Shown here in pieces: positions 33-5,574 of a stretch of DNA of 64,000 nucleotides. Within the stretch, counting starts at the first letter, position 1, and each line of letters begins with the position of its first letter. Source of the stretch: Cyanobacteriota bacterium (GTDB lineage: Bacteria; Cyanobacteriota; Cyanobacteriia; CACIAM-69d); assembly GCA_022402445.1 (NCBI GenBank), contig JAKRSF010000003.1, positions 1-64,000 on the forward strand, given 5' to 3'. The notes under the pieces are model-generated. The model was not told the origin of the DNA, searched no databases, and saw nothing but the letters and a program-made list of their open reading frames with translations. Position numbers and translations under genes: made by a program.

Positions 33-56
33 AGTGGGGGAAACCCCGCCCCTACT
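33..56. repeat. Short palindromic repeat, GTAGGGGC family
   Basis: Read on the minus strand this is AGTAGGGGCGGGGTTTCCCC followed by CACT, a GC-rich inverted repeat. A close relative lies at 8587-8618. It overlaps the end of the binding-protein gene, and the TAG inside the repeat is that gene's stop codon. Confidence 0.6.
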
Positions 57-1791
57 GGGTGGGCCGTTTCCAGTCCTTGATGTTCCAGGTGTCGGCGTCC
101 CAGGGGGTTAGGCGCACCCCTTCGAGGCGATTGCTGACGGCTCCGACGGAGGCGCGCACCACTAGGGGCACCAGGGCCACATCGTTGATCAGCAGGTCGT
201 TCATTTGGATGAGGAGCTCCCGGCGCTTCTCGGGATCCAATTCGGCGGCGGCGGCGGTCCAGAGGCGATCGTACTCCGGGTTGCAGTAGCGGGCGTAGTT
301 ATTGAGGCTCCATTCGTTGGCCTTGGTCACGATTTCATCACAGGTCCACCATTTCATGTAGGAGCCGGGATCGGGGCTGGAGTTGCCGGTGGTGAACATC
401 TGCAAATCCGCCTCGAAGCGATTCACGGTGTCGGGGCTGCTGGGATCGCCGGAAAAGTAGACGCTGGCATCGATGGTTTTGAGTTCGACGCCGACGCCGA
501 TCGCGGTGAGATTCTGCTTAATAATTTCCTGGGCCTTTTGCCGCAGGGGGTTGACGGAGGTGACGAAGGTGACGGCCATTTCAACGCCATCTTTGTCGCG
601 GGTGCCGTCACTGTTGCTGTCGCGCCAACCGGCCTGTTCGAGCAGGGCGATCGCGGCGGCGGGGTCGTGGCGATAGGTGGTGTTGGGGGAATTGAACTGC
701 TGGGGCGACACGAGCAAATTCACCGCCACCTTACCCGTGGGGCCGTAGAGCTGCTGGGCGATCGCGTCCCGGTCAATGGCCAGCGAAAAGGCTTCCCGGA
801 TCCCGCGATCGCTCAGGAACGGATGGGGAAATTGGCGGGTCGAGCGTTCCCCGTCCGCCGTTTCCCGCCGGGGATCCGTGAAATTGAAATACAGCCGCTC
901 AATGTCCGACCCAAAGGCCACATCCAACCGCCCCTTGCCCGCCGCCTCCAGTTGCTTCAGGATCGGCGCTTCCACCTGGGGATTGTAGGCATAGTCCGCA
1001 TCCCCCGTTTGCAGCACCGCCCGCGCCGCCGAGGTGGCATCGCCGCCCCCCTTCAGCTCCACCCGCCGGAAGGGCACCGGCTCCCGGAAATGGGGATTGG
1101 GTTCGTAGACGATAATGTCCCCCGCCCGGAACTCCACCACCCGGTACGGCCCCGTCCCCACGGGCTGGGTGTTGGCGGGCGCTTGCTTGGCGTTGGCTCC
1201 GCTGTAGGACTCAAAGACGTGGCGCGGCAGAATCGCCCCCCCCAGGCCCACGAAGGGCTGGGACCAGGCGGGGGTGGATTGCTTAAAGGTGATTTTGACC
1301 GTGGTGGGATCGACGGCTTCGACGCGATCGACCTCCGCATAGTCCGCCGTGGTGGTGGCGGCCACCTCGGGGTTGGAGAGGTATTCAAACGTAAAGGCCA
1401 CATCTTCGGCGGTAAACGGTTGGCCGTCGGACCATTTCACGCCCTCGCGCAGTTTCCAGGTGACGGCGGTGCCGTCGGGGGCGATGCCGCCATTTTCTGC
1501 CGTGGGGATTTCGGCGGCGAGGATGGGGATGAGGTTGCCGTCGCGATCGTAGGTGGCGAGGGGTTCGTAGGTGATGCGCGCCCCTTCAAAGTCCTTGAAG
1601 CCCGTGGCCAGGTGGGGATTGAGGATGGTCGGCGCTTGCCAGTAGAGCAGTCGAAGGACGCTTGGATCCCCGCCGCTAGGGCCACTGCCGCCGCCACAGC
1701 CCCCCAGCCCCAGACCGACTAGGGTGCAGGCGATCGCGGCGATCGCCCTGGGGGCAACTCGATGACGGTGGCAGCGGCGCTGGGGAATCAT
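52..1791 (-). CDS. ABC transporter substrate-binding lipoprotein (SBP family 5, peptide/nickel type)
   Basis: Probable periplasmic solute-binding lipoprotein that would deliver oligopeptides or a similar ligand to an ABC permease. I start it at the ATG at 1791, because this gives a short basic N-terminus, a hydrophobic stretch and a lipobox (LGLGGC); a longer frame back to 1902 would bury the signal. Family features are the early LLYWQAPTILNPHL segment, EDVAFTFEYLSNPE and the C-terminal DPEKRRELLIQMNDLL helix. The length of 579 aa is normal. No permease or ATPase gene adjoins it, which is common for scattered cyanobacterial ABC systems, so the ligand cannot be told. Its TAG stop lies in a dispersed repeat. 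A second family member is at 61635-63434. Confidence 0.9.
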   Translation of the reverse strand: MIPQRRCHRHRVAPRAIAAIACTLVGLGLGGCGGGSGPSGGDPSVLRLLYWQAPTILNPHLATGFKDFEGARITYEPLATYDRDGNLIPILAAEIPTAENGGIAPDGTAVTWKLREGVKWSDGQPFTAEDVAFTFEYLSNPEVAATTTADYAEVDRVEAVDPTTVKITFKQSTPAWSQPFVGLGGAILPRHVFESYSGANAKQAPANTQPVGTGPYRVVEFRAGDIIVYEPNPHFREPVPFRRVELKGGGDATSAARAVLQTGDADYAYNPQVEAPILKQLEAAGKGRLDVAFGSDIERLYFNFTDPRRETADGERSTRQFPHPFLSDRGIREAFSLAIDRDAIAQQLYGPTGKVAVNLLVSPQQFNSPNTTYRHDPAAAIALLEQAGWRDSNSDGTRDKDGVEMAVTFVTSVNPLRQKAQEIIKQNLTAIGVGVELKTIDASVYFSGDPSSPDTVNRFEADLQMFTTGNSSPDPGSYMKWWTCDEIVTKANEWSLNNYARYCNPEYDRLWTAAAAELDPEKRRELLIQMNDLLINDVALVPLVVRASVGAVSNRLEGVRLTPWDADTWNIKDWKRPTQ

Positions 1792-2450
1792 GGGCGAGGG
1801 CTCCAGGGAAGGTGACAGCAGAACGGCGGCGGATCCAAGACAGGGTGGCCAGGGCCAGGGGCTGTCCAGCGAACCCCGCTTCCGTGCCAGAGTGTGCCAC
1901 ATTCGCCGCGCTTTTGCCGTAGCGCCGCGCCCGGAGCCAAGGGCCGGGGGTATCCCTGAGGGACAATCCCCAGATCCGCGTTTGGATCCCCGGTTGTGTT
2001 GGCTCCCTAGGGTTCGTTAAGCTAGGGGTAGCATTCTGCCAAGCACAAAGGCTCCAGGGCCGCGCTAAATTCCAGATCAATTTCAGGTTCAGGTTCTCGT
2101 CAGTATTGCCCCCTGCCCCCCACGTTGCCCTCGGGAGCCGTTGCCAGCCGCTCCCTGGGGCCATCGTCCCGCGATCGCATCGGTGCATCCAGTTTTCATC
2201 GCCATCGGGTCGAGGGTTGGCGATCGCCCAGACCGTTGGGATAGCCCCCCCTGGGGATAGCGCCCAGACCCGAGTCTTGAGAACTTCCCTGAAATGTTCC
2301 CTAAGCCCCTGAAACCTCATGGAGACCGTCCATCCTCTTTGGGGTTGACGGCCCAGTGAGTCTGGGACCATTTTTTACCGGCAGTGGTTCCCCCTAGCCA
2401 TTGCCCTGCCCCGTTTCTCGCCCGTTGAGCACCCTACGCCGCACCGATCC
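1792..2450. other. 659-bp intergenic region
   Basis: No convincing gene was found here. The open frames on both strands lack recognisable domains and look like shadows of G+C-rich DNA. It should hold the promoter of the minus-strand lipoprotein gene and that of the plus-strand LOV kinase, but I see no clear -35/-10 pair. A weak terminator-like hairpin lies at 2349-2376. Confidence 0.5.
2349..2376 (+). terminator. Weak terminator-like hairpin
   Basis: CCCAG (2352-2356) pairs with CTGGG (2362-2366) and six T follow at 2371-2376. The stem is short and no gene ends just upstream on this strand, so it may be incidental or may attenuate the transcript of the LOV kinase. Confidence 0.25.
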
Positions 2451-4493
2451 ATGGTCATGTCCCACCACAGTACCCGCCGGGGCAGCGGAAATCTTCCCCC
2501 CAGCACCGGCTATTTGTCCCCCACGGAGGAGTGTTCAGGGGCTCCCGTGGAGGCGATCGCCCCCCAGGATCGAGCCATGCCGTCCCTAAATGCCCTCGAT
2601 ACGGTGGAGGCGGGGGAGTTGAGCGAGCCCCTGCGGGCCACCTTGGATCTGTATGAACGGGCGATCGCGGCATCGAGCTGCGGCATTGTCATCGCCAGTA
2701 TGCAGCACCCCGATCGCCCGTTGATCTACTGCAACCGAGCCTTCGAGGCCATGACGGGCTACGGCCGTGACGAAGTGCTCGGGCGCAACTGCCGCTTTTT
2801 GCAAGGGCCAGAAACGGATCCGCGCACCGTGGAACGCATCCGCCAAGCGGTCAAGGCCGAGCAGCCCTGCGAAGTGGTCCTGCGGAACTACCGTAAGGAC
2901 GGCACCCCCTTTTGGAATAACCTCGCCATTTCGCCCGTCCATGATGCCCGGGGGGTTTTGACCCACTACATCGGTGTGCAGACTGATATTACCCAGCAGC
3001 AGCAGGCGGACGAACAGAACGCGCGGCAACTGCGGGGAGAACAGCTCCTGAGTGGGGTGGTGGAACGGATTCGCCAATCCCTCGATCTTGATGAGGTGCT
3101 CGATACGGCGGTGGCGGAGGTGCGATCGCTCCTGGTGACCGATCGCGTCCTGGTCTATCGGTTCAATGACGACTGGAGCGGCACGGTGGTGGCGGAGTCG
3201 ATCGCCCCCGGCTGGACCCCCTCGCTGAACGCCCGCATCGAAGACACCTGCCTCCAAACCACCCGGGGCAGCAACTATGTGCGGGGCAAGGCCCAGGTCA
3301 TCGAAGACATCGACGCGATTAACCTGGATCCGTGCCATCACCAACTGCTGAGCCAGTTCGAGGTGCGCGCCAATCTGGTGGTGCCCATCCTCCAGGGGAC
3401 CAGCCTGTGGGGCCTGTTGATCTGCCACCAGTGCCGCTCCACCCGCCGTTGGACCTATGGGGAGGTGGCTTGGATCCAGCGGCTGGCGGACCAGATCGCG
3501 ATCGCGGTGCAGCAGGCGGAACTCTACGAACAGGCCCAGGCGGAAATCGAACATCGCCGCGCGATCGAAGCCCAGCTCCAAGCCTCCAAAGCCCAGATCG
3601 AAGCCCAGGCAAGCTGCCTCCAGGAAGCCCTGCAAGACCTGCAATGGCACCAAAGCCGCCTCGTTCAGAGCGAAAAACTCTCGGGCCTGGGCAAGCTCGT
3701 CGCCGGCATCGCCCACGAAATCAACAACCCCGTCTCCTTCATCTACGGCAACCTGCGCTACGTCCGCTCCTACGCCAACGACCTCCTCAACCTCCTCGAT
3801 GGGAACCCCAACTCCCCCGACGGCGATGCCCTAGAGGACATTGATCTCGACTTCATTCGCCAGGATTTACCCAAGATCTTGACCTCCATGGAATCGGGGG
3901 CCGAGCGCATCCGCGATATCGTCACCTCGCTGCGGACCTTTGCGCGGCTCGATGAGGCGGCGGTCAAGGAAATTGATCTCCACGCCAGCCTCGACAGTAC
4001 GCTGATGGTTCTCCAGGCGCGGTGGAATGAGGCGGGCATTGGTTCCGTGATCGAGGTGGTGCGCGACTACGGTGCCCTGCCGCCCCTGCTCTGCTGCCCT
4101 GGGCAACTGAATCAGGTGTTTGTCAGCCTCATTGACAATGCCTTCGAGGCCCTGCACACGGCCCTGGGGGATGCCACCTGGCTTGGCCGCCACGATCGCG
4201 GGCGCATCACCATTCAGACGGCCCTTGATACATCAACCCCGGAGCCCATGGCGATCATCCGCATTATCGACAATGGCCTAGGCATCTCCCCGGCCCTGCG
4301 CGCCAAGATTTTTGATCCGTTCTTCACCACCAAGCCCGTGGGCCAGGGGACGGGGCTGGGCCTGTCGATGTCCTACCAAATCGTGACGGAGCAGCACGGC
4401 GGACGGCTGACCTATGAACCGGCGACGCCTTCGGGGGCGGTTTTCATCGTGGCGTTGCCCCTGAAGGGCTGCGCGGCCTATCGGGTTCCCTGA
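2451..4493 (+). CDS. LOV - cyanobacteriochrome-type GAF - histidine kinase (dual photoreceptor kinase)
   Basis: Probable light-sensing histidine kinase of 680 aa. Residues about 65-190 form a LOV domain: GRNCRFLQ has the flavin-adduct cysteine C114 and Q118, with N146 and N156 in [11 protein letters not shown] and Q187 in GVQTD, so every usual flavin-contact residue is there. Residues about 200-360 form a GAF domain of cyanobacteriochrome type, with [10 protein letters not shown], a Cys-His pair (C295-H296 in DPCHHQLL), the RANLVVPI strand and [11 protein letters not shown] second cysteine, C267, sits in DTCL, the place of the DXCF motif of dual-cysteine cyanobacteriochromes. A coiled coil leads to HisKA (H422 in AHEINNP) and an HATPase domain ([15 protein letters not shown]). 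No receiver gene adjoins. The start is uncertain: 2451, 2457 and 2577 are in-frame ATGs without clear ribosome binding sites. Confidence 0.9.
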
Positions 4494-4568: not shown

Positions 4569-4916
4569 CTAGGCATCAATTCCCGCCGCCGTGAGGAGGT
4601 CTGCCAGGGCTTCGGGGGTCAGGTCGGCGGCGAGATAGTTGGGGGTGTCGGGGCGGTAGGGGGCGCGCAGGCGATCGCCCCCCAGAACCCGATCCGTGGC
4701 GGCGAGGATGGGGACATCGGGATCAAAGGCGGTGGGGCGCATCAGGGAACTGGAAAAGCCGCGAAAGATCATGACCAGATCCGCGCCGGTTTCTTCGCCG
4801 GTTGTTTCATCCCCGTCGGCGTCTTGGCGTTCGGCCCGCAGCAGCAGCACTTCCCCCGGATGGGCTAGGGTGTAGCGTTCACAGCGCAGCAGCAGAGGGT
4901 GGGGCGCGATCGCCAT
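4569..4916 (-). CDS. Conserved cyanobacterial protein (possibly DUF7734)
   Basis: Protein of 115 aa without signal peptide or membrane segment. The central stretch FRGFSSSLMRPTAFDPDVPI followed by DRLRAPY is what I recall from a small family conserved in cyanobacteria and plastids; the DUF number is from memory. The insert DADGDETTGEETGAD is variable and acidic. The role is unknown. It lies 61 bp downstream of the DUF3177-like gene on the same strand, so the two may be co-transcribed. Confidence 0.7.
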   Translation of the reverse strand: MAIAPHPLLLRCERYTLAHPGEVLLLRAERQDADGDETTGEETGADLVMIFRGFSSSLMRPTAFDPDVPILAATDRVLGGDRLRAPYRPDTPNYLAADLTPEALADLLTAAGIDA

Positions 4917-4977: not shown

Positions 4978-5574
4978 TTAACGCTGGGCGAGGCGGCCCT
5001 GTTTCGGCAGGCGGAACAGGACAAAGGTGCCCAGATAGAGCACATAAATCACCAGGCCCAGGATGCCCAAGAAGCCGAGGAAGCTGGGGTTGGTGTTGGC
5101 GTGGAAATATTCCCGGTACAGCCAGGTGGGGGCGAGCCACGCGCGGCAGAGGCTGTCTTCGGCGATCGCGGCGGCATTTTTAGCGGCGCAGGGCAGCGAG
5201 AACAGGTTTGCCACCACCCCGACAGCGCAGTAGGCCGTGATCGCAAAGCGCCATGCCTTGACCGCGAATTTCAGCTTGGGCTGGCGCAGTTCTTCCAGTT
5301 CTTCGTTGAGATCCACCCAATACCACAGGCCCAGGGGGATCAACATCCGCGACGCGATCGCGGTGACAAAACTGATGGGGAACGAGCCAATCATCAGATA
5401 GACCGTGATGGCCAACAGGCTCGCCACCCGCCAATAGACCACGAGCAGTTGCTGCACCGCTTCGGCCTTGGCGATCGCCGCCCACAGGAGCAGCCCCAGG
5501 GGGATCAACACGGTGAACAGCACGGCAACGCGGAAGTCAGCCCAAATCCACGGCTCAAACCAGGGCGTAGTCAT
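4978..5574 (-). CDS. DUF3177-like integral membrane protein
   Basis: Protein of 198 aa with about four or five hydrophobic segments (roughly residues 14-34, 45-65, 68-86, 108-128 and 168-188) and the N-terminus MTTPWFEPWIWADFRVAVLF, characteristic of a cyanobacteria-restricted membrane family I know as DUF3177. The function is not known. The C-terminus is basic (RLPKQGRLAQR) and probably cytoplasmic. It is divergent from the acyl-activating enzyme gene at 5781, with a gap of about 200 bp that must hold both promoters. Confidence 0.8.
   Translation of the reverse strand: MTTPWFEPWIWADFRVAVLFTVLIPLGLLLWAAIAKAEAVQQLLVVYWRVASLLAITVYLMIGSFPISFVTAIASRMLIPLGLWYWVDLNEELEELRQPKLKFAVKAWRFAITAYCAVGVVANLFSLPCAAKNAAAIAEDSLCRAWLAPTWLYREYFHANTNPSFLGFLGILGLVIYVLYLGTFVLFRLPKQGRLAQR

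Follow-up and report, generated by a model that had tools for sequence, protein, structure and literature searches.

The 680-residue product of one gene in the window (the whole stretch of 64,000 nucleotides that was analysed) joins a LOV domain and a cyanobacteriochrome (CBCR)-type GAF domain in front of a single histidine kinase, suggesting that flavin and bilin light sensing may be combined in one protein. We put the probability that it acts as a dual-chromophore kinase, in which LOV blue-light sensing and a two-cysteine bilin sensor jointly control a kinase that signals to an unlinked response regulator, at roughly 75%. The original prediction, made from the DNA alone, had proposed such a dual flavin/bilin kinase, and as a prediction it is supported, because it held up in domain identity, pocket residues, orthologue conservation, the fold model, bilin biosynthesis, the kinase motifs and the lack of a nearby receiver. 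The features on which the argument draws are as follows.

52 to 1902, minus strand: family-5 solute-binding lipoprotein, a divergent neighbour given for context and lying outside the sensor (SBP_bac_5, 5e-76).
2451 to 4493, plus strand: LOV-CBCR-histidine kinase, 680 aa (open frame, Pfam, orthologues in five genomes of the order).
2643 to 3008, plus strand: LOV domain, aa 65-186, with C114, R115, Q118, N146, N156 and Q177 (PDB sequence matches, residue invariance, fold match).
2790 to 2792, plus strand: codon of the photoactive LOV cysteine C114 (sequence, orthologue alignment).
2991 to 3077, plus strand: LOV-to-GAF linker helix, about aa 181-209 (continuous helix in the model; 24-residue spacing as in other LOV-GAF tandems).
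3027 to 3539, plus strand: cyanobacteriochrome-type GAF, aa 193-363 (PDB matches 6oap, 6bhn and miRFP670nano; fold matches 6oap, 3w2z and 4fof).
3249 to 3251, plus strand: codon of the second cysteine C267 in DTCL, at the DXCF position, with D265 as the conserved Asp (D-T-C invariant in six proteins).
3333 to 3338, plus strand: codons of the canonical bilin cysteine C295 and of H296 (Cys invariant, followed by His in 4/6 and Tyr in 2/6 proteins).
3456 to 3617, plus strand: GAF-to-HisKA signalling helix, about aa 336-389 (continuous helix in the model).
3690 to 3956, plus strand: HisKA with phospho-acceptor H422 (Pfam 4.7e-8; HEINNP at 422).
4104 to 4466, plus strand: HATPase_c with the N box, DNGLG and a further 19-residue box (Pfam 1.5e-19).

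The frame is uninterrupted across all 680 residues, and its codon-position GC of 66/44/80% is typical of a coding gene. The domains follow the order LOV, helix, cyanobacteriochrome GAF, helix, HisKA and HATPase, with Pfam placing PAS_9 at residues 77-182 (7.3e-25) and GAF at residues 212-353 (2.4e-24), followed by HisKA and HATPase_c at the values listed above. The expectation that a domain search would recover both a LOV domain and a CBCR GAF was borne out by Pfam and by sequence matches to solved structures: in a PDB sequence search the best relatives of the PAS are LOV domains (down to 3e-41), and those of the GAF are PPHK (6oap), a phototaxis-sensor CBCR (6bhn) and miRFP670nano (down to 1.5e-46). 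Structure prediction, which had also been proposed, agrees; an AlphaFold2 model of the LOV-GAF portion (aa 60-390, 41 aligned rows, mean pLDDT 93) lies close to known LOV and cyanobacteriochrome structures. In Foldseek comparisons the modelled LOV superposes on 9vf7 at 1.0 A (TM-score 0.90 normalised by target), and the modelled GAF on the blue-absorbing TePixJ 4fof (TM-score 0.86 by target) and on PPHK at 2.0 A each.

A LOV-CBCR kinase was found in 6/6 genomes of the window's order, which is small and sampled here by these six genomes, the five relatives coming from two genera other than the window's. The three genomes of genus g2 encode LOV-GAF-HK proteins, G387 (g143) encodes LOV-GAF-GAF-HK, and in G388 the contig ends past the first GAF. 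Across LOV and GAF the relatives share 58-61% identity with the window's protein, and C114, Q118, N146, N156, Q177, D265, C267 and C295 are invariant in the six proteins. Three orthologues, together with the second GAF of G387, carry DTCF, the literal DXCF. The G387 protein (L131, 8319-11294) has two tandem two-cysteine GAFs after its LOV domain, with DTCL/CY and DTCF/CH respectively, an apparent duplication within the order.

In the GAF, the bilin pair C295-H296 and a second cysteine at the DXCF position, both read earlier from the letters, are present, the latter as D265-T-C267, with D-T-C kept in 6/6 proteins. The GAF is of the CBCR type, with a canonical Cys followed by His, and Pfam finds no PHY domain in the 680-residue protein. 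The second-Cys motif is DTCL, and since Leu268 replaces the Phe of the literal DXCF, we describe the domain as a CBCR whose second Cys is DXCF-like, and not as a strict DXCF member. In DXCF GAFs the second Cys bonds the bilin at C10, phycocyanobilin is often isomerised to phycoviolobilin, and the photocycles are blue/green, teal or orange (PMC5578081). The domain is therefore probably, judging from its residues, a two-cysteine bilin sensor of the blue/green kind, and since this kind is expected, the two sensors may overlap in the blue; by the DXCF rule both dark states would absorb blue. An alternative, which we consider rather improbable, is that C267 makes no bilin bond, the GAF then being a green/red colour switch with a single cysteine, like that of PPHK. 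The best structural relative, 6oap, is indeed green-absorbing with a Tyr at the second-Cys place, and DTCL is not the literal DXCF, but the second Cys is invariant in the seven GAFs of the clade, four of which carry DTCF.

A two-cysteine bilin sensor also has to be weighed against the idea that the LOV domain alone is the working light sensor and that the GAF, with little or no bilin binding, functions as a structural relay. LOV tandems with a non-bilin GAF and the same 24-residue linker do exist (L139, L143, L144), as does a LOV-kinase with no GAF in G008 (L147). Against it, every GAF of the order, even the duplicated one, retains the canonical Cys, the second Cys and the Asp, these GAF domains group together at 100/99 in the GAF tree, and the cell can make phycocyanobilin, so that we hold it to be quite unlikely. 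The genome encodes a single ferredoxin-dependent bilin reductase, which is PcyA (equivalog score 314 bits, cut-off 206), and two heme oxygenases; phycocyanobilin is therefore the expected bilin. The same genome also holds an open frame of 1371 aa that encodes a row of four or more CBCR-like GAFs (L265, contig C7, about 65600-68400).

The LOV pocket contains C114 (in GRNCRFLQ), R115, Q118, R131, N146, N156 and Q177. Of the flavin contacts originally listed, C114, Q118, N146 and N156 stand, whereas Q187 does not: an Asp occupies position 187, and the glutamine of the LOV pocket is Q177, within GVQTD. The reactive Cys, the two Asn, the Gln reporter and the modelled LOV fold are those expected of a LOV photoreceptor domain, for which FMN binding and a blue-light adduct are predicted. 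It is the only LOV domain with a reactive cysteine that we found in its own genome, where two LOV-like PAS domains carry Tyr (L256, contig C9) and Pro (L264, contig C7) at the reactive-cysteine place. LOV-type PAS domains are able to sense the redox state of their flavin, and it is conceivable that this one is mainly a flavin redox or oxygen sensor and not a light sensor, as the two cysteine-less LOV-like domains of the genome might suggest; yet this protein and 5/5 relatives retain both the reactive cysteine and the glutamine reporter, which makes a mainly redox role very unlikely.

In the AlphaFold2 model one unbroken helix leads from LOV into the GAF, and a second, of about 54 residues, extends from the GAF towards HisKA. 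Counted from QTDIT, at the end of LOV, to RIRxxL, at the start of the GAF, the LOV-GAF spacing measures 24 residues in 18 tandems out of 19 and 31 in the remaining one; 17 of the tandems were parsed by script, all with 24, and two were read by eye (L234 with 24, L249 with 31). Among the 17 script-parsed tandems the spacing is independent of GAF type (two-Cys, green/red or non-bilin) and of the presence of the LOV Cys. The exception, L249 (G170, contig C24, 55000-60300), combines a GAF with a preceding LOV-like domain whose cysteine position is taken by Phe, and its linker of 31 equals 24 plus one heptad. The constant spacing fits coupling through a fixed-register helix, a mechanism that PMC6798134 proposes for the linkers joining sensor modules.

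The sensor histidine kinase motifs are intact (H422, the N box near 561 and DNGLG at 607). As had been noted for the kinase gene, no cognate receiver lies nearby: no receiver domain was found within 34 kb downstream on the contig or in the 2.45 kb upstream to the contig end, and the nearest receiver-domain match on the contig begins at 38860, about 34 kb downstream. About 88 receiver-domain matches are found elsewhere in the genome. That the kinase is a phosphatase or decoy with output through protein contact, a thought prompted by the lack of an adjacent response regulator in the window, is scarcely credible against the intact H422, N box and glycine-rich boxes and the roughly 88 receiver matches that could serve.

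Under the dual-chromophore reading, the protein would be a soluble histidine kinase that dimerises and carries two photosensors one after the other. The LOV domain would bind FMN and form an adduct at C114 under blue light, and the GAF would attach phycocyanobilin via C295 with a second, light-labile bond via C267, passing from a blue-absorbing dark state to a photoproduct at longer wavelength, possibly green, teal or orange. Both sensors would feed into a single unbroken helical spine leading to HisKA, where H422 would be autophosphorylated; the flavin and bilin states would thus jointly set the kinase output, and the phosphate would be passed to an unlinked response regulator. The conserved cysteines are no proof that the kinase responds to both chromophores, and one of the sensors could be a bystander.

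The divergent solute-binding lipoprotein gene adjoins the kinase gene also in G033, G045 and G386 (3/5 relatives), and in G387 it is located elsewhere, away from the kinase gene. Where the pair is kept, the flanking genes on the other side differ. A functional link between the kinase and the solute-binding protein was set aside, the intergenic DNA failing to align and the pair being broken in G387. Downstream of the kinase, the genes at 4569-4916 and 4978-5574, both on the minus strand, encode DUF7734 and DUF3177, families without an assigned function.

The pairing of LOV and CBCR is not unique to the window's protein and recurs in several cyanobacterial families. We read the domains adjoining about 80 LOV matches from 386 cyanobacterial genomes, a sample biased toward query-like sequences, for which reason we claim no frequency for the pairing. 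Ten further LOV + CBCR proteins were found, in six families besides the window's. (i) A LOV domain with the reactive Cys accompanies a CBCR GAF with the bilin Cys twice in G170 (L134, directly adjacent, and L186), in G062 (L184), in G195 (L191) and in G344, G191 and G280 (L225, L228, L239). (ii) The order is reversed in G127 (L223), with GAF before LOV. (iii) In G211 (L133) and G062 (L137) the LOV domain adjoins a GAF whose C-L motif is that of the green/red RcaE class, and a match to RcaE was demonstrated for the L137 GAF. Two further proteins, L135 (G155) and L136 (G261), have Ser at the LOV reactive-Cys place directly before a GAF with the green/red (RcaE) C-L motif, and seem, from these residues, to have lost flavin photochemistry while keeping the bilin sensor. 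Since such LOV-Ser proteins and the non-bilin-GAF tandems described above both exist, either sensor can be dispensable in evolution.

In the LOV tree the order's LOV domains fall together at 100/95, with one long-branch intruder, as its GAF domains do in the GAF tree. The LOV-CBCR label changes at least three times on supported branches in each tree; the pairing therefore arose, or was lost, several times, and a single origin is rejected. Enrichment of two-cysteine GAFs among LOV partners is not claimed, related GAFs without LOV often being two-cysteine as well. More tentatively, and at odds that we would call less than even, LOV and a two-cysteine CBCR might form a recurrent, interchangeable cassette with fixed helical coupling, in which blue intensity would be gated by the blue/green ratio in one kinase dimer, both dark states absorbing blue and only the bilin being reset by green; this would be a bacterial logic element without prior description in the literature covered.

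PPHK (Leptolyngbya sp. JSC-1; PDB 6OAP, 6OAQ, 6OB8) comes nearest in working principle: there too a helix joins a second sensor and a CBCR GAF ahead of one histidine kinase. In both sequence and fold the PPHK GAF is the best match to ours (45% identity across the aligned region, 2.0 A), and it differs in the Tyr at the second-Cys place. The other sensor of PPHK, which we take to be a phosphorylated receiver, is replaced by LOV in the window's protein; a BeF3-bound entry among the PPHK fold matches in Foldseek is consistent with a receiver. DXCF cyanobacteriochromes (TePixJ, 4FOF; Tlr0924) share the canonical Cys, the second Cys after a conserved Asp and the fold (2.0 A), whereas our GAF has Leu for Phe and is coupled to LOV and a kinase. 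LOV histidine kinases (Brucella LOV-HK; the Meiothermus Mrub_1259 LOV, 9VF7) have the same LOV pocket, at 1.0 A to 9VF7, but no bilin domain. The neochromes of plants combine phytochrome and phototropin. Neochromes and Ppr of Rhodospirillum centenum resemble our protein in carrying a bilin sensor and a second, chemically different photosensor on one polypeptide, and a 2022 review counts them, with CBCR-module arrays, among natural photoreceptors combining several photosensors (PMC9614035); Ppr joins PYP to a phytochrome (PMC5812497). Neither has a CBCR GAF, and by its Pfam domains, with no PHY, the window's protein is not of the neochrome or Ppr type and would at most work like them. Among studied cyanobacterial kinases that combine an FMN-binding PAS with a GAF, the closest is CdgK (All2875, Anabaena PCC 7120); it differs in being a large hybrid kinase of the membrane, with CHASE, five PAS domains, two receivers and Hpt, and its GAF is not described in that study as bilin binding (PMC9927289). 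Our search, which covered passages of some open-access papers on CBCR and LOV and the titles of others, found no description of a natural LOV-CBCR protein, and none is named in the passages covered of the 2022 review (PMC9614035).

In the protein described here, a compact natural polypeptide of 680 aa with two sensors and one kinase, flavin and bilin chemistry would share one helical spine. To our knowledge, most studied multi-input photoreceptors repeat one chromophore class or are engineered. The relatives form a series with one GAF, two GAFs, a green/red-type GAF, a cysteine-less LOV or no GAF, which would allow signal integration in histidine kinases to be tested with point mutants and light colours, and a LOV-CBCR kinase could serve as a two-colour optogenetic switch.
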